Counted from the stretch's first letter, positions 16,849 to 32,605 are shown. The stretch is DNA of 32,729 nt from Campylobacteraceae bacterium (GCA_027038275.1 JALVXC010000125.1:1-32729), one strand, 5' to 3'. Notes: a model not told the origin generated them from the letters alone. Program-made: numbers and translations.

Positions 16849-17787
16849 ATGATAATATTAGGTGATAGATATGTTTTTTCTAATGTAGAGTTAAACCGTT
16901 TAAAGAAAAAATTTTCTAATATTACATTTATTTCATATAAAAATAAAAGTGCTTCAGAGTCTATAAGAAAGGTTAACAAAGCACTAAAAGAGTCATCTCC
17001 TAGACTTATTGTATTAAATACACAAATAAAACTTCCTCATAGATTTTTAACTTTTTTAACTAAACTAGAACTAAAAGGGGTTCGATATATAAGCCTAGAG
17101 CATTTTTTAGAGGAGTATTTAGATAAGTGTTATATTAATCTTGACTCTAACACCAACTCCTTTTTAGAAGATATTCGTCCCTATACTCCTTTTCAATATT
17201 GTCAAAAACGTCTTATTGACTATATTTCTGTTATAACTCTTTTACCCTTTACTCTATTGGCTATAGCCTATAGTTGGTATAGGGTAAAAAAAGAGTCTCC
17301 TGGACCTCTATTTTTTAGACAAAAACGTGTAGGTCTATCTGAGAGAGAATTTACCTGTATTAAATTACGCTCTATGCATATAAATGCAGAGGAGAATGGT
17401 GCACAGTTTGCAGTAGAGAATGACCCAAGAACATTTCCTTGGGGTGCAAAAATAAGAGATAATAAAGTAGATGAGCTTATTCAGCTATGGAATGTATTTA
17501 AAGGAGAGATGCACTTTGTAGGACCTAGACCTGAGCGAAAAATATGGACAAAGGAGTTTGAAAAATCAATTCCTTACTATACTCAACGTCATGTTGTAGC
17601 TCCTGGTATTACAGGATTGGCTCAAATTAAGTATCAATATGGTTCAGGAAAGCTTGATGCTGAACAAAAATTGATGTATGACTTATACTATATAAAAAAT
17701 TGGAATATTCTTTTAGACCTTAAAATTATTTGGAAAACAGCTCTCTTTGTTCTGACTAAAAAGAGAGAAGATTTATCAAATTTCTAA
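16849..17787 (+). CDS. Initiating sugar-phosphate transferase (bacterial sugar transferase family)
   Basis: This 312-residue inner-membrane protein probably loads the first sugar-1-phosphate onto undecaprenyl phosphate to start capsule or exopolysaccharide repeat synthesis. Residues 1-110 form a soluble N-terminal part. A hydrophobic helix (about 121-144) precedes the PF02397-type catalytic domain: PGPLFFRQKRVGL (151-163), IKLRSM (171-176), DPRTFPWGAKIRD (192-204), DELIQLWNVFKGEM (208-221) and FVGPRPE (223-229). The usual DELPQ is DELIQ here. It lacks the several N-terminal membrane helices of WcaJ/WbaP enzymes and so is a short form. Its 3' end overlaps the convergent KpsC-like gene by 12 bp. 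Confidence 0.88.
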   Translation: MIILGDRYVFSNVELNRLKKKFSNITFISYKNKSASESIRKVNKALKESSPRLIVLNTQIKLPHRFLTFLTKLELKGVRYISLEHFLEEYLDKCYINLDSNTNSFLEDIRPYTPFQYCQKRLIDYISVITLLPFTLLAIAYSWYRVKKESPGPLFFRQKRVGLSEREFTCIKLRSMHINAEENGAQFAVENDPRTFPWGAKIRDNKVDELIQLWNVFKGEMHFVGPRPERKIWTKEFEKSIPYYTQRHVVAPGITGLAQIKYQYGSGKLDAEQKLMYDLYYIKNWNILLDLKIIWKTALFVLTKKREDLSNF

Positions 17788-18897
17788 CTTAAATGGTTTT
17801 AGTATTGCTCTAACTGTTCGCCTTGCACGTGGTAAGAGGTAGCCTTTTAAATTGACTCTATATCTATATAATCTGTCATTAAAATAGCGTTCTTGCTCCT
17901 CCTTTAGCTCCTCTAAAGTCTGCTCTACTTCACAAAACTCTCCTGTTTTAGGAGAGATATATCGAGGAAACAGAATAAGTGTTGCAGCTACAAGTTCATC
18001 TAATGAGAGTTTTCGTGTTCGTCTATCACACTCTCTATAGTCGGTAGTAAGTCCCCACCCTGCATAGAAAGGCATACCATAGGTAAAGACAGCTTTTCTG
18101 CGTAAAAGGGCATCAAACCCTGCTCCAGAGGTTAGAGTGTGTATCTCATCGCTTACAGCTATGCATGAGTCTATGCTAACATCTGTCTGAATCTCATTTG
18201 CACATGCATCTGTTATCTTTTTTGGAATATGACCTTCTCTATTTCCTGAAAGAACATCAGGGTGAGGTTTGTAGATAATATAGGCATTAGGGTTATTTTC
18301 TCTAACTATCTGTAGTAAATCACTATTATTAAGACCAAATGCTCCAAACTTAATAGACATATCATCTTCAACTTGTCCTGTAACCAAGATGACCTTGTCA
18401 TACTTCTCTCTGTCTATCTCTATAGTTTGGTGTGCTAAGTGGTTATATTTTGAAAATTTTGACTCAACTACAGCCTCTCTAACCTTTTTGGCTCTCTCTA
18501 AGAGTTCAGAAGAGAACTCATGATTCTCTAAAATATACTCTAAATCTGATGGTTTACGAGGGTCAAAGTAGATTCCACGAGAGTCAATAGTCAAAGAGTA
18601 AGGCTTTGCAAACCCAGACCCCAAAGCAACAGAACGAATAAAAGCATCTTCTATGCGATAGATAGTCATATTGTGCTTTTTAGCATACTCCTCTACTTCA
18701 GGAAACTCTATAATTCCATATATAAAGATATTTGAGTTGCTATCTAAGCCTTTGTCTAGTGCCTCTTTTAGGGTTTTGCAGATAAACTTTTGATTGTTAG
18801 GAGCATAAAAAAAGTTCTCTATCTGCATCATTCTCCATGGAGAGAAGTTAAAAAAGTAGAGTTTTCCTTGGTTTGAGGGGTAGCTAATAGTATTCAT
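17776..18897 (-). CDS. Single-domain KpsC-like capsule Kdo transferase
   Basis: This 373-residue protein belongs to the KpsC/LipA-type capsule biosynthesis family (PF05159). KpsC adds beta-Kdo linkers to a phospholipid on which group 2 capsules are built, acting at the inner face of the inner membrane. Family motifs are visible: RIEDAFIRSVALGSG (81-95), VTGQVEDDMSI (172-182), IIYKPHPDV (207-215), LTSGAGFDALLRRK (255-268) and TYGMPFYAGWGLT (272-284). E. coli KpsC has two such domains in about 670 residues; this protein has one, so it may add one linkage type. It has its own TATAAT (18922-18927) and may also be read through from the upstream operon. Confidence 0.82.
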   Translation of the reverse strand: MNTISYPSNQGKLYFFNFSPWRMMQIENFFYAPNNQKFICKTLKEALDKGLDSNSNIFIYGIIEFPEVEEYAKKHNMTIYRIEDAFIRSVALGSGFAKPYSLTIDSRGIYFDPRKPSDLEYILENHEFSSELLERAKKVREAVVESKFSKYNHLAHQTIEIDREKYDKVILVTGQVEDDMSIKFGAFGLNNSDLLQIVRENNPNAYIIYKPHPDVLSGNREGHIPKKITDACANEIQTDVSIDSCIAVSDEIHTLTSGAGFDALLRRKAVFTYGMPFYAGWGLTTDYRECDRRTRKLSLDELVAATLILFPRYISPKTGEFCEVEQTLEELKEEQERYFNDRLYRYRVNLKGYLLPRARRTVRAILKPFKLEI

Positions 18898-18969: not shown

Positions 18970-20160
18970 TTATTGATTAATAAATTTTACAACCTCTCCA
19001 AATATCTCCTCTTGAGCAAGATTCTCCCAACCTTTCTCGTAATCTATTAACCCCTCTATCTTCTCTTGTTCAAATAGAGTTTGGCTATTTAGATTAGATA
19101 AGTTTTGTAAATCTATCTTTTTACCAGCTACTGACTCTACTCTTGCTTGGACACCTATTTTACTGTCGTATAGTACAAAAGTTTTTATATCTTCTGCATA
19201 TATCATTGATGCCATTGCTGAAATATTACTAACTCCAGCTTCAAAGCTATATTCATTTAAATCATAAAGCTTATCTTTATACTCTAGTTTATCTTGAAAT
19301 CTCTTATGTACCCAAGGGTAGACCCAATCTGTTTTTTGGGCTACAAATATTATCTTTTTATTTAGTGCTACTAAAGCCTCTATGCTTTTTAGTGTCTGCT
19401 CTATAAGTTTAGAGTCTCTTATGCCTGTATTTGGGTGGAGTTTTACTACTATGGTTTCTATATCTAAAAGATTAGATAACTTCTCTATAAACTCTGCATT
19501 TTTATTGTAGAGGTGAAGAGTAGAGTAGTTCTCCTCCTCCATAGCTCCTTCCCATGTTGGTGCAAACAAGATAGCCTTTTTGCCATGTTTATTAGCGTTT
19601 GGAAGCACTGAACACAAGGCAGATTTTCCAACTTTAACAAACTTATACCTCTCCTGCTCTCTAAAGATTTCATGTTTAATAAAACGCTCTATTGCTAACT
19701 CTCCTGTAACTAAAATATAGTCAAATACACGTATCATCTTTTTGTAGTAGGCTATCTTTTCACTATCTCCATGCCCTATCCATACATGTTTAGAGTACAA
19801 GTTTTTGTTGATTACAGAAAAGTTATACATGCTATTGTGAGTATAGAACCAAACTTTATTCTCTGCAGAGGGTATATCTCTTAGATTAATAATACAATGT
19901 CCATGCAGTCCATACTTTTTTAAATCTCGTTCTATATACTTTACTGATTCAAAGTGGTGTTTGTAGACAATTAGAACTTCATCTTTTGGAAAAAAACCTT
20001 TTTGAAATGGTGGATATACTTGGTCTATAATATTTGTTACTTTGGAGTTAAGAAAGATAAAGTATTTATATTTGCTAATATCTGCCTCTTTTCCTTTGCA
20101 AAAGATATTTTTTCTTGCGTCTCTTAGAAAGTTTTTAATATTGGCTTTTGTAATCTTCAT
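18970..20160 (-). CDS. TagF-like CDP-glycerol glycerophosphotransferase family protein
   Basis: This 396-residue protein probably transfers glycerol phosphate, or a related polyol phosphate, from a CDP donor to a growing surface polymer. It shows the GT-B fold motifs of the family in order: VWIGHGDSEK (126-135), which replaces the usual WHG-x-P-x-K; LFAPTWEG (198-205); VVKLHPNTG (238-246). In place of the DYSS motif it has GVSNISAMAS (309-318), so it is a divergent member and its substrate may differ. It has no membrane helix and no TPRs. It is the fifth gene of the - strand operon, 5 bases after tagD, whose product would supply CDP-glycerol. It might act as a primase adding the first unit while the large fusion enzyme extends the chain. 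Confidence 0.7.
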   Translation of the reverse strand: MKITKANIKNFLRDARKNIFCKGKEADISKYKYFIFLNSKVTNIIDQVYPPFQKGFFPKDEVLIVYKHHFESVKYIERDLKKYGLHGHCIINLRDIPSAENKVWFYTHNSMYNFSVINKNLYSKHVWIGHGDSEKIAYYKKMIRVFDYILVTGELAIERFIKHEIFREQERYKFVKVGKSALCSVLPNANKHGKKAILFAPTWEGAMEEENYSTLHLYNKNAEFIEKLSNLLDIETIVVKLHPNTGIRDSKLIEQTLKSIEALVALNKKIIFVAQKTDWVYPWVHKRFQDKLEYKDKLYDLNEYSFEAGVSNISAMASMIYAEDIKTFVLYDSKIGVQARVESVAGKKIDLQNLSNLNSQTLFEQEKIEGLIDYEKGWENLAQEEIFGEVVKFINQ

Positions 20161-20165
20161 CTCTT

Positions 20166-20630
20166 TTACTCAAAATCTTTTTTAAGTAACTCTATTACTT
20201 CAAAAGCATTAATAATATCCTCTTTTGGAATAGACATAAAATTGGTTAATGACTTTTTGAGTTGTGTAGTAGATATATCTTTTGTTCTCTCCAAATATAC
20301 TACTTCACAATACTCTTTAAGAAAGTCAAACTTACCTTTCCAATCATCACCAATAGCAAAAATATCTACATTATATCTTTTTATATCATCTACTTTTTGC
20401 TCCCAACTCTCTTCTGGAATGACTTTGTCAACACACTTAATATTGGCAACTATCTCTGCTCTTTGTTCGTAGGGAATCATAACTTTTTTCCCTTTACCAC
20501 GATTAAACTCATCTGTTGAGACAGCAACTATAAGTTCATCAGCCATATCTTTTAGACGTTGAAGTAATCTTAAATGTCCTATATGGAACATGTCGAATGT
20601 TCCGTAGGTTATTATGGTTTTTTTATTCAC
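20166..20630 (-). CDS. tagD: Glycerol-3-phosphate cytidylyltransferase (TagD-like)
   Basis: This 154-residue enzyme makes CDP-glycerol from CTP and sn-glycerol-3-phosphate, the donor for teichoic-acid-type polymers. The fold is unmistakable: TYGTFDMFHIGHLRLL (HxGH CTP-binding motif), DELIVAVSTDEFN, a YEQRAEIV segment, FAIGDDW and the ERTKDISTT signature near the end. I chose the GTG start at 20630 because GAGAGG (20640-20645) lies 9 bases upstream and the protein then begins like TagD. A longer frame with TTG at 20651 would overlap the preceding stop (TTGA) but has a poor ribosome-binding site. Ethanolamine-phosphate cytidylyltransferases share the fold, but the RTKDISTT pattern favours glycerol-3-phosphate. 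Confidence 0.88.
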   Translation of the reverse strand: MNKKTIITYGTFDMFHIGHLRLLQRLKDMADELIVAVSTDEFNRGKGKKVMIPYEQRAEIVANIKCVDKVIPEESWEQKVDDIKRYNVDIFAIGDDWKGKFDFLKEYCEVVYLERTKDISTTQLKKSLTNFMSIPKEDIINAFEVIELLKKDFE

Positions 20631-20647
20631 TGTTTTATACCTCTCTT

Positions 20648-22015
20648 TCAACCTATAGCCAAAAATAAAAACTCTTTCCCATTTTTAGCTATGTTTTTAT
20701 ACGATGCTATCTTAGATAGTAGACTACTCTTTTCTAAATCAACCACAAGTTCATACTCTATTGAGTTGTTTGTATCTATAACAGAGAGTAGTTTCTCTTT
20801 TAATTTAAACAGACTTATCTCTGTAGTAGATTCATTTAGTAAAATATCTGTATACTTTTTTAAAGTAACATCATCATAGACTCTTAAGCTCATATTTTGA
20901 TTTTTTGTATAGATAATTAGTTTTGTAAGTTTTAACTCTGCTTTAATATCTATTTTTTTAGTTATAGTTTTACTACAGTCAATATCTTTTGATTTTATCT
21001 CTGCTAATTCATAAAAAAGATTATTTATAACTAACATTAAAATATTAATAGTTTTAGCAGCTACATCAGGGGGTGTTTTTATTTGAGGGTGACATACATT
21101 TATATAGTTTATTTTATTATCTTTATCATTCTCTTTAATAATGCTATTGATTGCCTCATAGATAGGAGATTTCTCTGAGTAGATAATATTGATATTTTCA
21201 GGTATGTTATTAGTTTTCATTAAAGTAGTAAACTTCTCTTGTTTTGTTTTAGGGTAGATTCTATACTCTCCATACTGCTTTGTAAAGTGAGAATCTTTAG
21301 AGTGTTGTTCATGATACTCATCAGATACTACAGGGTCAACTGCTACTGCTTTATATTTTCCTAAGATACCATGATAGAGTACAGCTGTTCCACCTTTAGA
21401 ACCTCCATAGAGAACAACATCTTTTTTATCTATACTATTTGACTCTAAAATATATTTTAATAATCCCTGAATATCATCTTCTATTGTATTAGAAAAAGTT
21501 GTGTTCATATAGAAGTTTCCAATAACTCCACCAACATCAGCAATACGTAAAATATAACTATTTTGAGGAATATACTTTGAGATAGTTCCAAAGTTAGTAA
21601 AGAAATTTCTAACAGCAATATCTGCATTAAATGCTCTATCTGCAACAGAAGAGAAGATTACAATGAGTCTGTTAGGAGCAAAATTTAAAAGAGGCTTCTC
21701 TAAAGTATAGTAGATATTATTGTATATCTGTAAGTTTTTGACTTTTATATTAGGTTGAAACTCTTTTGCTGTTGTAAACTTTTCAAATCTTGAGTTGCCT
21801 AAGGAGGAGGAGACTAAAAAAAAGCCATTTGAAGCTAATCTTACAACAAGCTCTGTAACTCTCTTTTCACGTCTAGCAAAACCAATCAGATTATGCCCTC
21901 TCTCTTTTATATCTCCTACTTTTGAACGGTCAATATATAATGTTTGAGTTGGAAGTTCAAAATCTAATGGCTCTTTTAACATATCTTCTGTTAAAACTAT
22001 TTTAAGCTCTTTCAT
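20648..22015 (-). CDS. Alpha/beta-hydrolase-like capsule protein (XcbB/CpsF or Asp2-like)
   Basis: This 455-residue protein contains an alpha/beta-hydrolase core with a GGSKGG nucleophile elbow (204-209; predicted S206) and a later conserved-looking His (H309 in CHPQIKTP). E281 is a possible third member of the triad. The elbow follows a DVVLYGGSKGG strand as in the XcbB/CpsF capsule family and in Asp2, whose related proteins act on glycans as acetyltransferases. No signal peptide or membrane helix is seen. It lies between the large glycosyltransferase and tagD, with 4-base spacing and an AGGAG ribosome-binding site inside the upstream stop. It probably modifies or acylates the polymer or helps its assembly. 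The family label is from motif recognition and is uncertain. Confidence 0.6.
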   Translation of the reverse strand: MKELKIVLTEDMLKEPLDFELPTQTLYIDRSKVGDIKERGHNLIGFARREKRVTELVVRLASNGFFLVSSSLGNSRFEKFTTAKEFQPNIKVKNLQIYNNIYYTLEKPLLNFAPNRLIVIFSSVADRAFNADIAVRNFFTNFGTISKYIPQNSYILRIADVGGVIGNFYMNTTFSNTIEDDIQGLLKYILESNSIDKKDVVLYGGSKGGTAVLYHGILGKYKAVAVDPVVSDEYHEQHSKDSHFTKQYGEYRIYPKTKQEKFTTLMKTNNIPENINIIYSEKSPIYEAINSIIKENDKDNKINYINVCHPQIKTPPDVAAKTINILMLVINNLFYELAEIKSKDIDCSKTITKKIDIKAELKLTKLIIYTKNQNMSLRVYDDVTLKKYTDILLNESTTEISLFKLKEKLLSVIDTNNSIEYELVVDLEKSSLLSKIASYKNIAKNGKEFLFLAIG

Positions 22016-25654: not shown

Positions 25655-28600
25655 TTAATCCTTGTTTTTATCTCCATAGCGAAGCTCTAAAGCCTTAGCA
25701 TACTCTTCTTTACTCATTTTCAATATGTTATTTAATACATCATCTACCTCTATTAGAGAAAAACTATGTAATCTTTTTAGAAAAATAAAATTGCTCAAAG
25801 GGTCATGCCAATGAAAGTTAAAGTACTTAACACCTAATTTTCCTCTACTTACATAGTTTTTATCATAGTTGTTTTCTAAAAATAGATTAGTATTGAAAAC
25901 TTTTATCTTTTTTACATTAAATCTCATAAGGTCTAAAATAACACGCTGTATTCCACTTGGTGCACCTTTAAGCATTGGGTTAGCAAATGGGTGAGCCGCA
26001 TAGTATCTTTTTCGTATAGGTTTAGTAACCCCTGTAAAAGCTATATCATCTAATGAGTGAGGGCTATCTACAATGACCCAATCTAGCTCATTTAACCAAT
26101 TAATCTTTTTAGCCTCTATTCTGTCTCTTAATAATCTAGCCTCTATATAAAATGAGATATTTGTCTTTTTTCCAAAACTATTTTGAGAGAGTTTATCTCT
26201 TCCCATATAGTTGAAACGTAAAACTATATCATAACTATCAATCTCATCTCCTAAATTTAAGCTAGAATCTACAGGACCTACAATAGCAACCGATTTATTT
26301 TCAATATATGATGCAAATTTTTGCTCTAAAGGTGTTAAAATTTGTTTATAAAACTCTATTGCAGACTCCTTTCTTCCAAAGTAGAGTTCTGTAGCACCAA
26401 TTAACTGTAGGTTTTTTTTGATATAGGATAGCTCTTTTTTTAATAGTACATTTTTTAATCTATCATACTCTTCAATAGATTGGCTCTCTGCCATAGCTGT
26501 TAAGCGATATTGAGCATATTTTACATTTATTGTACGAGTTAATGATAAGATAGATTTGAGTGCATTCTCTCTAGCATAATAGTAAAGGGTATACTTTTGT
26601 ACCAATAAAAATAGGTTAGCCACAATAAACCATACAGTATGAGGTAGATACTCTGCTTCTAACTTTTGACTAAAAGATTTACTAAACTCTTCAATCTTAG
26701 CTAAAAAGAGTTCATTGGTACTCTCTCTCATATCACTATCATCAGTCTTTACATACTCTATAAGTTCAACAAATGCTAAGTAGAAGTTGTTCCACTCTTT
26801 AGATTTATCTTTAAGCTTTTCTAGTAAAATCAAAATACCTGTAAAACTCTCTGCATTAAATCTATGTTTAACGTAAGAGACAATCTCATTTATCTCTCTT
26901 TTCTCAACCTCTAAAGCATATCGAATCTGTGACTCACGAATATAGTAGAGTGTAGGGTAGCGATTGTCTGTTATGGGATATTTCTCTTTTACCTCTTGAA
27001 ACTTCTCTAAAGCATCTCTATACTCTTTTTTATTGAAGTGTTCAATTGCTGCTTGATACAAGCTATCTAAACTATATTTAAAATTGTGGCTTAGAGATAG
27101 TACTTTATGCTCAAACATCTCTAAAGCCTCTTTATTGTAATCTTCTGCATTAAATCTATTTAGATTTAGAGATGAAGTTAAAAATTTTGACATGCCCTCG
27201 TAGAGACCATTTTTAGAATTTTCAACTAAGTAGCCTAGATTGTTCTTTAAAACACCTCTTGGGCCTTCAATATTGGTACTAATAATAGGTTTATTTAAAA
27301 TCATAGCCTCAAAGAGTACTAAGCCTTGCCCTTCATGATTTGATGAGAGTACAAAGCAATCTGATGCTTTTAGATAAGGCATAGGGTTAAACTTCTGTCC
27401 CAATAGAAATACTCTATCTTCTAATGATAGCTCTACTATTAACTCCTTTAAATCCTCCTCTAGTGGTCCTTGTCCAAGAATAACTAACTTAATATCACTA
27501 TACTCTTTAGTCAATTTAGAGAAGGCGTAGATTAGTTTTCTCTGCCCCTTTTCAGGAGAGAGTCTTGCTATATTAATAAAGACTCTACTATTTTTAAAAA
27601 TATCCTTCTCATACTCATCTGAAATTGGAGCTTTTGACTTTTCAATAATCTCTTTAGGGTTTAAAATGTTATTACAGTAGTCAAATAGTTCTCTATCTAA
27701 TCCAAGATTTTTTTGATTTATTTGGCAAGAGTCTTTAGAGACTGAGATAAGTTTAGTATAGCTTTTGTAGAACTTCATATTTCCATAAAGGTATGGAAAA
27801 CGAGTTTTTGCTTCACTTAAAATATCACTATGAAAATAGAGCACTTTAGGCACCTCTTCAACGGAAGCAAAGAGACGCAACCAATATTGGCTATAGCCTT
27901 CAAAATTTACAATTAAATCAAACTTCTCTCCTTGAAAAACACGTTGATACTCTCTTCTATATGCTCTCTTTACAATACTCCACATCTCTTTAGAAGCCAA
28001 ATCATGATGTAGATTTAACTTACCAATTAACCACTTCTCCTCTAAGCTCATAAGCATAGTTGATTTTTTCTTAATAAGTGTTATGTCTGAGTTTAATCTT
28101 TTAAACTGCTCTTTGTATTGTTCATCTTTACTTAACTGCTCTTCATCTACTACAACATATACTCTATATCTATCTTTATCAATAGCATTGACTAGATTTA
28201 AAAAAGAGGTAGTAATGCCATTAGGAATAAAGTGTCCTCCATAGAGCAAAATAGATTTTTTCTTGCTCTTCTCTTCTTTATAGTATCTTTGTTGAAAAAA
28301 AATCTCCTCAACTCTTTTTAGTGGGTCGTTAGTCTCTTTAGTAAACTCATTTAAACAAAACTGCCCCTCTTTTTGAATAAAATAGTCAGGTAGTTTTGTA
28401 TTGTTAATAATATATTTACTACTACATAAATAGCGTCTATATAGATTACTATTTTTGTTGATTAAGATAACATTTCTATTCTCTTTAACCTCTTTTGGTA
28501 TCTCTTCAATCCTATTTATAACCCAAATATGTCTATATGGGTCAAAGTGAACATCTTTTTGAATCTCCTTAAATAGGTCTAAAACAACAGATTTTCCAAA

Positions 28601-29752
28601 AGAGTCTTGATAACCCTCATAGACAATTAAACGTTCATCTAGCTCTAATCTCGCATAATACTCAACGTAGTTGATACTCTGTTGTAAAACGCTGTTTTTA
28701 TGATACTCACTCTCTACTAACCCATGAGCATCTTGAATAATACGTTGCTCTAAAAAGAGTTCACTTGCCTCTTTGTATCTCTCTTGTTGGACTAGTGTTG
28801 ATGCCAATAAAAAATAGATATCTGCATTAAACTCTTCTGCTCTTGCTAAATACTCTTTGTAAGCATACTCTGCAACACGCCAAGATTTTAAAGATTCTGC
28901 TTTTTTTGCAAACTCAAGCCATGCATTTAAAGATAGTGGTTCATTTTCAAGAAGATATTTATGTAGTAAAACTCCGTTCTCTTTTTCTACAGATTTATTC
29001 TTTACTCTATTTAATAGCAATGGCTTTTTTTTCATCATTAAAAAAGCTTCACACGCCTCTTTATATAGCTCTTTTTTTCTAAGTAGATATCCTAACCTAT
29101 AGTAGAAGTAGGGTAGATGTTGTTTGTGCTTAAAGACTGCAACCAAATAGGATTCAATAGCTTTGTCATACTTTTTTTGTCTCTCTTGAACAATTCCTAA
29201 ACGATGGTAGAAATGTATAGGTTCATCACTCCCTAAAATAGCATTTAAATAGGTCTCTTCAGCTTTAGCCCAACTATAACAACGGTCATAAGCCAAACCT
29301 TGCTTGTATGCCATCTGAATAGAGAGCTTTTTCTCTTTAAAGCTCTCTTCATATGCTTTAGAAGCACTACTCCAATCCCCTAATGCTTCAAAAAATACAC
29401 CCTTTCCAAATAGTTTTGCATTTTTTTTATTATCTAACTCTATTGCTTTAGCATAAAATAGTTCTGCTAACTCTTTTTGATTATTTCTCTCTAGGGCATA
29501 AGCATAGTCAAATGATTCATCAGAGGTTAACGGAGCAATAGCCTCTACTTGCTTATAAACTTTAGTAACCTCTTTAAAACGATACATCTTTTTTAAAGAG
29601 AAGATATACTCTAAAAGTAGTTCTCTTTTTGGTTGATATGTTAAAGATATAACCTTTTTATATACCTCTACAACTTGCCACCATAAGCCCTCTTTTTTGA
29701 GTGGCTCTATCTTTTTATAGTAATATAAAGCATCTTTTTTTTCAGATATCAT
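25655..29752 (-). CDS. Giant fusion: TPR, GT4 and GT29-like glycosyltransferase with a gutted glycerophosphotransferase domain
   Basis: This 1365-residue paralogue of the next gene has TPR-like repeats at about 10-340. Residues 355-467 match the start of the neighbouring glycerophosphotransferase domain (for example YRHIWVIN, YFIQKEGQ). At about 467-477 the sequence jumps to the end of that domain, so the WHG, APTWRG and DYSS motifs are absent. A full GT4 domain follows (498-880; LSPEKGQ, EGQGLVLFEAM), then helical repeats (895-1145). The C-terminal module (1152-1345) has VAIVGPVDSSLNLGDEID followed by SYDIVLRFNY, then GAPSGIQRVILDLMRF and FHWHDP, which match the L, S and VS motif layout of GT29 sialyltransferases. 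It heads the - strand operon. Predicted to add two different sugars; the GT29 donor (CMP-sialic acid or CMP-Kdo type) is inferred. Confidence 0.8.
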   Translation of the reverse strand: MISEKKDALYYYKKIEPLKKEGLWWQVVEVYKKVISLTYQPKRELLLEYIFSLKKMYRFKEVTKVYKQVEAIAPLTSDESFDYAYALERNNQKELAELFYAKAIELDNKKNAKLFGKGVFFEALGDWSSASKAYEESFKEKKLSIQMAYKQGLAYDRCYSWAKAEETYLNAILGSDEPIHFYHRLGIVQERQKKYDKAIESYLVAVFKHKQHLPYFYYRLGYLLRKKELYKEACEAFLMMKKKPLLLNRVKNKSVEKENGVLLHKYLLENEPLSLNAWLEFAKKAESLKSWRVAEYAYKEYLARAEEFNADIYFLLASTLVQQERYKEASELFLEQRIIQDAHGLVESEYHKNSVLQQSINYVEYYARLELDERLIVYEGYQDSFGKSVVLDLFKEIQKDVHFDPYRHIWVINRIEEIPKEVKENRNVILINKNSNLYRRYLCSSKYIINNTKLPDYFIQKEGQFCLNEFTKETNDPLKRVEEIFFQQRYYKEEKSKKKSILLYGGHFIPNGITTSFLNLVNAIDKDRYRVYVVVDEEQLSKDEQYKEQFKRLNSDITLIKKKSTMLMSLEEKWLIGKLNLHHDLASKEMWSIVKRAYRREYQRVFQGEKFDLIVNFEGYSQYWLRLFASVEEVPKVLYFHSDILSEAKTRFPYLYGNMKFYKSYTKLISVSKDSCQINQKNLGLDRELFDYCNNILNPKEIIEKSKAPISDEYEKDIFKNSRVFINIARLSPEKGQRKLIYAFSKLTKEYSDIKLVILGQGPLEEDLKELIVELSLEDRVFLLGQKFNPMPYLKASDCFVLSSNHEGQGLVLFEAMILNKPIISTNIEGPRGVLKNNLGYLVENSKNGLYEGMSKFLTSSLNLNRFNAEDYNKEALEMFEHKVLSLSHNFKYSLDSLYQAAIEHFNKKEYRDALEKFQEVKEKYPITDNRYPTLYYIRESQIRYALEVEKREINEIVSYVKHRFNAESFTGILILLEKLKDKSKEWNNFYLAFVELIEYVKTDDSDMRESTNELFLAKIEEFSKSFSQKLEAEYLPHTVWFIVANLFLLVQKYTLYYYARENALKSILSLTRTINVKYAQYRLTAMAESQSIEEYDRLKNVLLKKELSYIKKNLQLIGATELYFGRKESAIEFYKQILTPLEQKFASYIENKSVAIVGPVDSSLNLGDEIDSYDIVLRFNYMGRDKLSQNSFGKKTNISFYIEARLLRDRIEAKKINWLNELDWVIVDSPHSLDDIAFTGVTKPIRKRYYAAHPFANPMLKGAPSGIQRVILDLMRFNVKKIKVFNTNLFLENNYDKNYVSRGKLGVKYFNFHWHDPLSNFIFLKRLHSFSLIEVDDVLNNILKMSKEEYAKALELRYGDKNKD

Positions 29753-29812: not shown

Positions 29813-32605
29813 TTAAAACTCTTTCCATCTATATTCAATACGAATACCACTATTATTGTCTATAGTTTTAATTAAATTATTATCTTTATCATAAACATAG
29901 TCGATAGATTTATTATATAATCTATGTTTTGAATCATAAATATAAGTTGAGACATGATTTCCTTCAACTCTTTTGACTATTAAACCATTTATATACTCGT
30001 TTGTTATCTCTTTATCATAAGTACCATCATTATCCATATCATATTTTTCTGTTAATCTATTATGATAGTTGTCGTAGGTATAAATTATTTTACTTTTAGT
30101 TGACAACTTTTCAACTGATTCTTCAAAAGATTCCATAATCTCTCCATTAGTATCATCATATATAGTATAAGCAGGGGTTACTTTAGTAACTAAAATTTCA
30201 CTCAGCTCTTCAACTAGATTATTATTAGTATCATAATTAAAATCTATTGTATTTTTAGTACTTATTAAGATATTTATATATATTTGAGCTCCTCCAAAAT
30301 CTTGAATATACTTAGGTTCTGTAGAATTTGATTCTACAACTTTACGTACTAAAACATTTTCTTTATTATAAAAATATAACGTTCTTTGATTACTATTACT
30401 TGAGGTATAATTATTAAATTCAGGATCAGAAAAGGAAGACTCTTCTAAATACAGCTCTTTAATTACTTGATTAAAGTGATTATAGAAGTATTTTGTTCTA
30501 GATATGGACTTACTACTAATATTATCTATATCATAGGAGTCAAAAACTTTATCAAATATTTTGAGTAATCCATTTTTATCATAAGTATATGTTTCAACTT
30601 GATTATATCCATTATGTGAATACGCTTCATGATATATTTGATTTTTGGACAAAAGTTTAAACTCCAAAACTTCTAAATCAACTCTAAATTCATTTAAGTC
30701 TGTTTCGCCATCTTTTAGATTTAACGAAATCGTATATAGACCTTTTTTATCAAATTTCATATAAGGGGTAGTACTATTCTCTTCTCCTAAAAAAGCTTTA
30801 CTTTCATCAGGCTTTTCTACTAAACTCCAATTGTATGTTAGATTTTTATCTTTAATTTTATCACTTAAGTTTGCTTCCAAAACAATTGTATTTCCAACAT
30901 GTAAAATTCCAGAGTAGTCTATCTTGAAAGGTGGAGCTGTAAATGGGTCTGTTCCTTTTGTTTTCTCTTCTGTATTACTCACACCATCTTTATCACTATC
31001 TATATAAACAGTTACTAATCTTTGAGCTATTGCTTTATTTCCTGCACTATCGTTTACACTATATGTAATTATATTTTTTCCAATAACTGAGCTATCTACA
31101 GTTCCATTAATGATAATATTTGAGCTTATCTCCCCATCCGCATTGTCATAAGCTGTTGCATTTAGCTCTATGTATTTTTTATATTTATAGATTTTAATTT
31201 TAGAGTTTCCATTTAGTCTTATAATAGGAGGAGTTGTATCTTTTATAACAGTAACGATTCCTTTTGTAGTTGCTATATTTCCTGCACTATCTGTAACTGT
31301 AAAAATAACCTCTTTCTCTCCAAGTGTAGAAGTATCTACCTTTGAGATAGATATAGAAGAACTTAAGTCTCCATCTGCATTATCTTTTGCTGTTATATTA
31401 AATTCATTATAATCATGATTTTGATAAATAGTAATATTTCTATCTCCTATAAATTCTAAGATGGGAGCCTCTATATCTTTAATTACATTTACTACTCTAG
31501 TTCGACTGACTTTAATGCCTTCACTATTAGTAACGCTATAGGTTATTACATTTTTTCCTACAACAGATGTATCAACATCTCCTGTAATAATAATTTTTGA
31601 ACTTATATCTCCATCTTTATTATCAAATGCAGTAGCATTTAACTCTTTATAGGTCTGATTTAAATAAATAGTTATATTCTCATCACCATTTAGAGTAATA
31701 GAAGGAAGAGGACAAGCCCCACCATCTTTGATAATCCACCCAAAGTTAGAAATTATATAACTTCTACTATCTTTTGCTGTATAACAAGTTTCACCAACAT
31801 CAAAAGTTACATTAGGAGATAAATTTAACTTACTCCATGCCTTTAATATTTTATCATAATCATGGGTTGATAACTCTAAAAAATTAGTAAAGATTCCATC
31901 CATATTTTTAACATTAGAAATGTTCCATTTGCTCATATCGAAAGAGAAAGATGTATCTGCAAACATAGATGACATATCTTCTACATTAAAGACATTCCAA
32001 TCACTTATATCTTGATTAAATCTATCAAAAATCATAGCAAACATACCTGACATCTCTTTTACATTTGATACGTCCCATTTAGTAATATCTAGTTTTCCAC
32101 TAGAAGCCATAAACATATAACTCATATTTTTAACATTAGAAACATCCCAATCACTTAAATTTGAATCTGTATTAACCATTGCAAACATATAGCTCATATC
32201 AGTTACTTTAGATAAATCAGGAGTATCAGAAGCATTAATCTCTAAGTTACTACAACCATCAAATGCATGATGCATAGAGAGCCATTTAATATCTCCCCAT
32301 TGATTTACAGCAATTATTTTTTTGCTATCATCATTATTGTTAAAGTAAATTTGAGGAAAGTCTCCTAATATTTTTACAGTATACTCTCCTGTCTTTGAAT
32401 AGGTATGTGTTATATCTCCTATAACATTACTATCTTTTTTCCCATCACCCCAATCTATAGAGTAGTTATAACCATCACCAATAGTAGGTATAGTTATTTT
32501 ATTGTTATCTATATTGTCTATTCTCCATTTTATAATAAATGGTCTACTTTTATTATTGTTTATAGTTTGTATTTTCTTTTTTGTTTCACTATCATTACAA
32601 CCTAA
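29813..32605 (-). CDS. BspA/DUF285-Ig-PKD surface lipoprotein, lacking start codon and signal peptide
   Basis: The open frame covers 930 codons from 32605 and begins L-G-C-N-D-S-E, a lipobox-like end of a lipoprotein signal. A TAG stop (32606-32608) lies directly upstream, and no ATG, GTG or TTG occurs in frame until ATG 32275, 110 codons in. Residues after the Cys form a PKD-like domain (about to 32290), then DUF285 repeats of the type WDVSNVKNMSYMF. Three DUF5011/Ig-like repeats follow (192-266, 271-345 and 350-424 counted from ATG 32275), a DSDKDGVSNTEE calcium-type motif (426-437), another PKD-like domain (about 455-537) and YD-like tyrosine-rich repeats to the end. It would be a surface adhesin. 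Translation from 32275 would give an unexported 820-residue protein, so it is broken, a silent cassette, or affected by a sequence error. Confidence 0.75.
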   Translation of the reverse strand, partial: LGCNDSETKKKIQTINNNKSRPFIIKWRIDNIDNNKITIPTIGDGYNYSIDWGDGKKDSNVIGDITHTYSKTGEYTVKILGDFPQIYFNNNDDSKKIIAVNQWGDIKWLSMHHAFDGCSNLEINASDTPDLSKVTDMSYMFAMVNTDSNLSDWDVSNVKNMSYMFMASSGKLDITKWDVSNVKEMSGMFAMIFDRFNQDISDWNVFNVEDMSSMFADTSFSFDMSKWNISNVKNMDGIFTNFLELSTHDYDKILKAWSKLNLSPNVTFDVGETCYTAKDSRSYIISNFGWIIKDGGACPLPSITLNGDENITIYLNQTYKELNATAFDNKDGDISSKIIITGDVDTSVVGKNVITYSVTNSEGIKVSRTRVVNVIKDIEAPILEFIGDRNITIYQNHDYNEFNITAKDNADGDLSSSISISKVDTSTLGEKEVIFTVTDSAGNIATTKGIVTVIKDTTPPIIRLNGNSKIKIYKYKKYIELNATAYDNADGEISSNIIINGTVDSSVIGKNIITYSVNDSAGNKAIAQRLVTVYIDSDKDGVSNTEEKTKGTDPFTAPPFKIDYSGILHVGNTIVLEANLSDKIKDKNLTYNWSLVEKPDESKAFLGEENSTTPYMKFDKKGLYTISLNLKDGETDLNEFRVDLEVLEFKLLSKNQIYHEAYSHNGYNQVETYTYDKNGLLKIFDKVFDSYDIDNISSKSISRTKYFYNHFNQVIKELYLEESSFSDPEFNNYTSSNSNQRTLYFYNKENVLVRKVVESNSTEPKYIQDFGGAQIYINILISTKNTIDFNYDTNNNLVEELSEILVTKVTPAYTIYDDTNGEIMESFEESVEKLSTKSKIIYTYDNYHNRLTEKYDMDNDGTYDKEITNEYINGLIVKRVEGNHVSTYIYDSKHRLYNKSIDYVYDKDNNLIKTIDNNSGIRIEYRWKEF

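Follow-up and report, generated by a model that had tools for sequence, protein, structure and literature searches.

Among the closest described systems, Cps3D of Actinobacillus pleuropneumoniae is a capsule polymerase that combines a TPR region, a glycerol-3-phosphate transferase and a galactosyltransferase, and its structure and trans-acting domains have been described (PMC11666461, PMC5974469). In TagF-dead Cps7D of the same species, the GT-B domain stays active and complements in trans; the family of TagF-like polymerases is defined by the presence of all five TagF motifs (PMC5974469). HS1.09 of Campylobacter jejuni HS:1, of the same enzyme class and phylum as the protein described here, carries glycerol phosphate and galactose transferase domains in one polypeptide (PMC11924219). 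A capsule protein of Escherichia coli K6 joins a GT29 domain to a second ulosonic acid transferase, GT107, with CMP-ulosonate donors and a poly-Kdo product proposed (PMC13171606).

Here, we describe P0001, a 1365-residue protein encoded by an environmental Sulfurovum-like bacterium on a 32,729-nucleotide stretch of DNA, hereafter the window (GCA_027038275.1, JALVXC010000125.1). Like Cps3D and Cps7D, P0001 runs from a TPR region through the start of the TagF N-terminal subdomain (TagF-NT) to a GT-B (GT4) domain; unlike them, it is devoid of the TagF core and its active-site motifs and bears additional helical and GT29-like modules. It also differs from HS1.09, both domains of which are active and for which the consulted part of the source reports no GT29 (PMC11924219). 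With the K6 protein it shares the fusion of GT29 to another transferase within a capsule cluster, the partner being GT4 rather than GT107; the consulted part of the K6 source mentions neither a TPR region nor a TagF remnant (PMC13171606). A search of a limited literature collection found no TagF-less member of the TagF-like polymerases.

The P0001 capsule locus

The genes of the locus that bear upon P0001 are as follows.

25655–29752, minus strand: P0001, a TPR/half-TagF remnant/GT4/helical/GT29-like protein of 1365 aa, delineated by translation, domain search and alignment to P0002
22020–25652, minus strand: P0002, an intact TagF-like/GT-B capsule polymerase of 1210 aa, 2 bases downstream of P0001
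23253–24023, minus strand: the P0002 TagF core that is missing from P0001, residues 544–800
20648–22015, minus strand: XcbB/CpsF family capsular polysaccharide biosynthesis protein (NF033892, 247.6 bits, cut-off 125)
20166–20651, minus strand: glycerol-3-phosphate cytidylyltransferase of the TagD type, which makes CDP-glycerol (TIGR01518, 166.5 bits, cut-off 165.4)
18970–20160, minus strand: capsule-locus protein of 396 aa, matched by no Pfam or NCBIfam family, with a 77% identical orthologue in the congener G522
17776–18897, minus strand: Capsule_synth (PF05159) protein

The TagD type, XcbB/CpsF family and Capsule_synth genes together mark the locus as a capsule cluster, in which TagD is the sole cytidylyltransferase; no CMP-ulosonate synthetase was found in the window's capsule cluster. 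The closest PDB relative of P0002 is Cps3D (8qoy, E 4e-226), and by motif and spacing, H545 and H676 of P0002 probably correspond to H612 and H743 of Cps7D. The 396-aa protein has no match in the corresponding locus of a further congener, G515. Upstream of P0001, an 820-aa protein (window 29813–32275) displays 'SNVKNMSYMF' repeats resembling those of BspA-type surface proteins, followed by HYR-like repeats.

P0001 retains half of a TagF N-terminal subdomain

Translation and alignment divide P0001 into the following segments.

28718–29752, minus strand: TPR region, residues 1–345, homologous to the TPR region of P0002 and of TagF-like polymerases
28343–28717, minus strand: TagF (PF04464) remnant, the first part of the N-terminal Rossmann subdomain, residues 346–470
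28283–28351, minus strand: deletion scar, residues 468–490, reading LN and then, across the cut, EFTKETNDPLKRVEEIFF; in P0002 this place is filled by ~250 residues, running from WHG to past DYSS
27095–28264, minus strand: GT4 (GT-B) domain, residues 497–886
26333–27094, minus strand: helical/weak TPR region, residues 887–1140, absent from P0002
25655–26332, minus strand: GT29-like domain, residues 1141–1365
26210–26290, minus strand: Sialylmotif L, VAIVGPVDSSLNLGDEIDSYDIVLRFN, residues 1155–1181
25790–25813, minus strand: VS-like motif HWHDPLSN, residues 1314–1321, read from the alignment

In a global alignment of P0001 and P0002, the TPR region and TagF-NT are paired, P0001 then jumps from residue ~470 to ~480, and the GT4 domains align again. 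The initial annotation had placed an in-frame join at 28330–28360 and the missing neighbour residues at 542–795; the alignment bears out both to within a few residues, with P0002 residues 544–795 left unpartnered. Its description of the first and last parts of the TagF domain as being joined holds in that both are present, but the arrangement is lopsided: while the first ~123 residues of the domain persist at 44% identity to P0002, only about 10 residues survive at the end (RVEEIFF in P0001, RVIDLFF in P0002). The PF04464 profile is covered from position 8 to 111 of 367 by the P0001 remnant searched on its own (E 1.3e-7) and from 10 to 365 by P0002 (E 9.6e-84). The P0002 motifs WHG (H545), APTWRG (639), GHH (674) and DYSS (712) are all absent from P0001, which thus does not possess the five TagF active-site motifs of TagF-like group 2 capsule polymerases; it does possess their TPR region and a GT-B domain following the TagF-like domain. 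With its TagF core missing, P0001 should be incapable of TagF-mediated glycerol phosphate transfer. An AF2 model of residues 150–900, spanning TPR, remnant and GT4, reached a pLDDT of 55, too poor to judge the fold of the remnant.

The GT4 domain of P0001 is complete, is 55–56% identical to that of P0002 and keeps its catalytic residues, namely R730 and K735, equivalents by motif of TarM R326 and K331, together with E807-x7-E815.

A GT29-like domain at the P0001 C-terminus

That the P0001 C-terminus carries a GT29-type module, as first annotated, was borne out by profile searches together with structure prediction. Against PF00777 (cut-off 23), P0001 scores 16.1 bits and its G522 orthologue 22.0 and 23.9 bits; a PDB sequence search with the P0001 C-terminus returned a weak match to ST6Gal1 (E 0.04). 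A profile of the GT29-like half, which includes three canonical bacterial GT29 rows, matches solved GT29 enzymes at 3e-10. The AF2 model of the domain, built from an eight-row alignment, has a pTM of 0.84 and a pLDDT of 79 and adopts the GT29 fold, a GT-A variant. Searched against the PDB, the model matches ST8SiaIII first (4e-7); all 28 matches with E <= 0.001 are GT29, as are the top 30 chains, all sialyltransferases, and GT42 comes next.

The similarity extends to sequence motifs. With the GT29 sialyltransferases ST8SiaIII, ST6Gal1 and ST3Gal1 and with bacterial GT29 (PMC5811610), P0001 shares the overall fold, as predicted, and Sialylmotif L, present as G-x-EIDSYDIVLRFN. The P0001 stretch GAPSGIQ...IKVFN resembles Sialylmotif S, in a region that the HMM alignment does not reach reliably. 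Unlike these enzymes, P0001 alone falls below the Pfam cut-off, its VS motif reads H1316-x4-N1321 instead of H-x4-E, the histidine being kept and the usual glutamate replaced by asparagine, and the motif III histidine was not found by alignment. Owing to the latter two deviations we call the domain GT29-like, and its activity is not assured.

A second truncated polymerase in a Sulfurovum congener

An intermediate form of the kind that the initial annotation had proposed to look for is present in G522, the uncultured Sulfurovum sp. HLG_WM_MAG_06 (L082, CACVAP010000093.1). In its 824-aa protein, a TPR region and the same TagF cut (LN-TFDVNTDLNEYIQSNFF) are followed immediately by the helical and GT29-like half, these being 38% and 59% identical to P0001, respectively; there is no internal GT4, and a separate GT4 is the next gene. 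Within a shared capsule locus, the two genes lie at the same end; gltX is 83%, Capsule_synth 84%, TagD 89% and the 396-aa protein 77% identical between the genomes. A third congener, G515, possesses the same flanks (66–92%) and an intact polymerase, with no P0001-like gene.

The truncated TagF form is carried by two genomes only, those of P0001 and G522: among 175 genomes of the family, a half-TagF polymerase was detected only in G522, and among 399 genomes of the order none was found beyond these two. Of the other half-TagF matches, that in G083 is an 845-aa ORF among genes resembling type VI secretion and not a polymerase, and those in G258 and G020 fall in short, interrupted reading frames. 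A contig scan of the genomes with P0001 as the query returned zero matches, and one with the GT29-like alignment returned seven loci. In G057, the gene for a GT29-like relative has a TagD-like gene on one side and a KdsB-type CMP-sugar synthetase gene on the other.

Several further module combinations were noted. In G522, the main polymerase next to the truncated TagF-GT29 protein is of a different kind, a 1092-aa protein with two PF04464 stretches and a TarS_C1 domain (L068:5968–9246). Two TagF-like polymerases, 1598 and 1567 aa long (L050:3671–8467 and L052:2678–7381), bear C-terminal extensions of ~450–480 aa without a Pfam match; the extensions are alike (IIMAKPDGFGMR..., IAIHIRGADI...), are possibly fucosyltransferase-type modules, and a related stretch seems present in L069:4486–6858. 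The G461 cluster (L070:1083–12341) splits the same modules in another way: it has two TagF-like polymerases, 895 and 888 aa long, an ORF of 660 aa holds most of the TPR region, and a 945-aa DUF1796/LicD-like protein separates the polymerases. An Opitutus MAG encodes a TPR-GT29-like protein, 40% identical to the P0001 domain, which is apparently split over two overlapping frames and is not near capsule genes (L083:6394–8729). Other members of the order carry GT2-GT29-type fusions of 667–668 aa (L092:6456–8459, L093:7197–9200, L094:5836–7842), the first two no more than about 3 kb from genes for TagF-like polymerases.

Evolutionary history of the truncated polymerase

In both truncated copies, TagF-NT is more diverged (34–47% identity to family relatives) than it is among intact polymerases (58–72%), as would be expected after loss of its catalytic partner; the TPR and GT4 regions show no such extra divergence. 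Purifying selection acts on both the TPR part and the GT29-like half. These observations bear on whether P0001 could be an assembly error or a decaying pseudogene. The draft state of the genome (188 contigs, 3.7% contamination) and the loss of the catalytic core, a possible start of decay, would allow it. However, the reading frame runs for 1365 codons without a stop, selection persists at both ends of the protein, and the identical cut in an independent congener excludes an assembly join peculiar to the P0001 contig, so that we regard an artefact or pseudogene as extremely unlikely.

A first N-terminal tree, from a poorly filled alignment, left the placement of P0001 unresolved; the trimmed set of TPR and TagF-NT sequences resolved it, grouping P0001 with G522 (99/98) and placing P0002 next (90/89), with a pairing of P0001 and P0002 alone rejected (p-AU 0.020). 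The TPR-only set recovered the P0001 and G522 grouping more weakly (90/90) and did not reject the P0001 and P0002 pair (p-AU 0.195). The GT4 tree, in contrast, united P0001 with P0002 (99/98) and rejected a grouping of P0001 with the G522 GT4 (p-AU 0.017). At residues identical between P0001 and P0002, the same codon is used at a frequency of 0.57, relative to 0.505 expected from codon usage; the silent sites are thus near saturation and the duplication is old. For the GT29-like halves of P0001 and G522, same-codon use is 0.54, near the random level, at 59% amino acid identity, which indicates purifying selection.

Taken together, the disagreement between the N-terminal and GT4 trees and the age of the duplication imply that module gain and loss continued afterwards. 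The truncated TagF-GT29 protein has long belonged to this capsule locus, and the GT4 was either lost or swapped in the G522 lineage or captured in P0001. In the simplest reading, an old duplication was followed, in a common ancestor, by deletion of the core and fusion to the GT29-like half, and then by loss of the internal GT4 in G522. A copy of a P0002-like TPR/TagF-like/GT-B polymerase would have lost its TagF catalytic core in frame, retaining about half of TagF-NT to connect TPR with GT4, and would have gained the helical and GT29-like half, both events predating the split from G522; the G522 orthologue would then have lost, or may never have had, the internal GT4, with the GT4 of another branch serving there. 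The domain swap after tandem duplication that was originally suggested therefore stands as to the paralogous neighbour; a single step between these two genes does not, in view of the G522 protein, the conflicting trees and the near-saturated silent sites. The change in polymer chemistry proposed along with it stays a prediction.

Alternatively, the ancestor could have been a TPR-remnant-GT29 protein as in G522, with P0001 later capturing a GT4 by recombination from the adjacent P0002-type gene. The N- and C-terminal parts of P0001 being closest to G522 and its GT4 closest to P0002 would follow from such a capture, as would the lack of an internal GT4 in G522. Three observations disfavour it: i) the stretch in which TagF passes into GT4 in P0001 (RVEEIFF...KKKSILLYGG) aligns straight onto the native P0002 junction, as expected if the GT4 is original, ii) silent sites provide no overall sign that the two GT4 domains recently underwent gene conversion, except perhaps at residues 701–750, and iii) the GT4 of G522 could just be a different gene. 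We consider the capture possible, if on the unlikely side.

A putative two-headed glycosyltransferase

We favor a model in which P0001 probably derives from a group 2 capsule polymerase of the TPR/TagF-like/GT-B type, has lost the TagF core and serves as a two-headed glycosyltransferase that works with P0002. Its GT4 would use a UDP-sugar to add a hexose, and a CMP-activated ulosonic acid such as Kdo, legionaminic acid or similar would be added by the GT29-like head. P0001 would act beside or in trans with P0002, which would supply glycerol phosphate and another hexose; this could lengthen the repeat unit or introduce a side branch or a linker. A CMP-ulosonate is the most likely donor for the GT29-like head, as the P0001 genome encodes four CMP-sugar synthetase family genes, two of which adjoin apparent nonulosonic acid synthesis genes, and the GT29-like gene of G057 is flanked by TagD-like and KdsB-type genes. 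The GT-B activity that persists in TagF-dead Cps7D (PMC5974469) and the GT29 fusion of E. coli K6 (PMC13171606) speak for the model; the lack of a CMP-ulosonate synthetase in the window's cluster, the missing VS glutamate and undetected motif III histidine, and the occurrence of the truncated form in two genomes only speak against it. We also considered CDP-glycerol, made by the TagD of the cluster, as a donor through which the GT29-like head would replace the lost TagF activity. CMP is released in both reactions, no other cytidylyltransferase is encoded in the cluster, and TagD accompanies the GT29-like gene in both G522 and G057. This reading is nonetheless very unlikely: P0002 already accounts for TagD, the G057 relative also adjoins a KdsB-type gene, and we know of no GT29 enzyme that transfers polyol phosphate.

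P0001 could instead serve chiefly in transition or side-chain synthesis, for instance by placing the first residues on the lipid linker or by decorating the P0002 polymer. Consistent with such a role, the P0001-type gene sits at the same cluster end in both genomes, each time with a different main polymerase next to it, and no single-domain TagF (CpsA-like) protein was seen in the P0001 cluster, while G515, G522 and G461 each have one. Yet a large enzyme with a TPR region and two heads is what one typically finds among polymerases (PMC5974469, PMC11666461), and another PF04464 gene is present elsewhere in the genome (contig C34); we regard this role as rather improbable. A bolder proposal, which we hold only tentatively and think quite unlikely, is that P0001 and P0002 assemble through their related TPR/TagF-NT scaffolds into a heteromeric capsule polymerase, in which the half-TagF would be a dead docking piece and the active heads, namely the P0002 TagF, both GT4 domains and the P0001 GT29-like domain, would build one repeat unit of glycerol phosphate, hexose and ulosonic acid.

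The P0001/G522 lineage keeps the scaffold, comprising the TPR region, half of TagF-NT and, in one case, the GT4, while having dropped the TagF core and gained a GT29-like head. It thereby offers a concrete route by which the chemistry of a capsule polymer could change through module loss and gain, and it provides a testable example of the role that the TPR/TagF-NT scaffold may play beyond catalysis.
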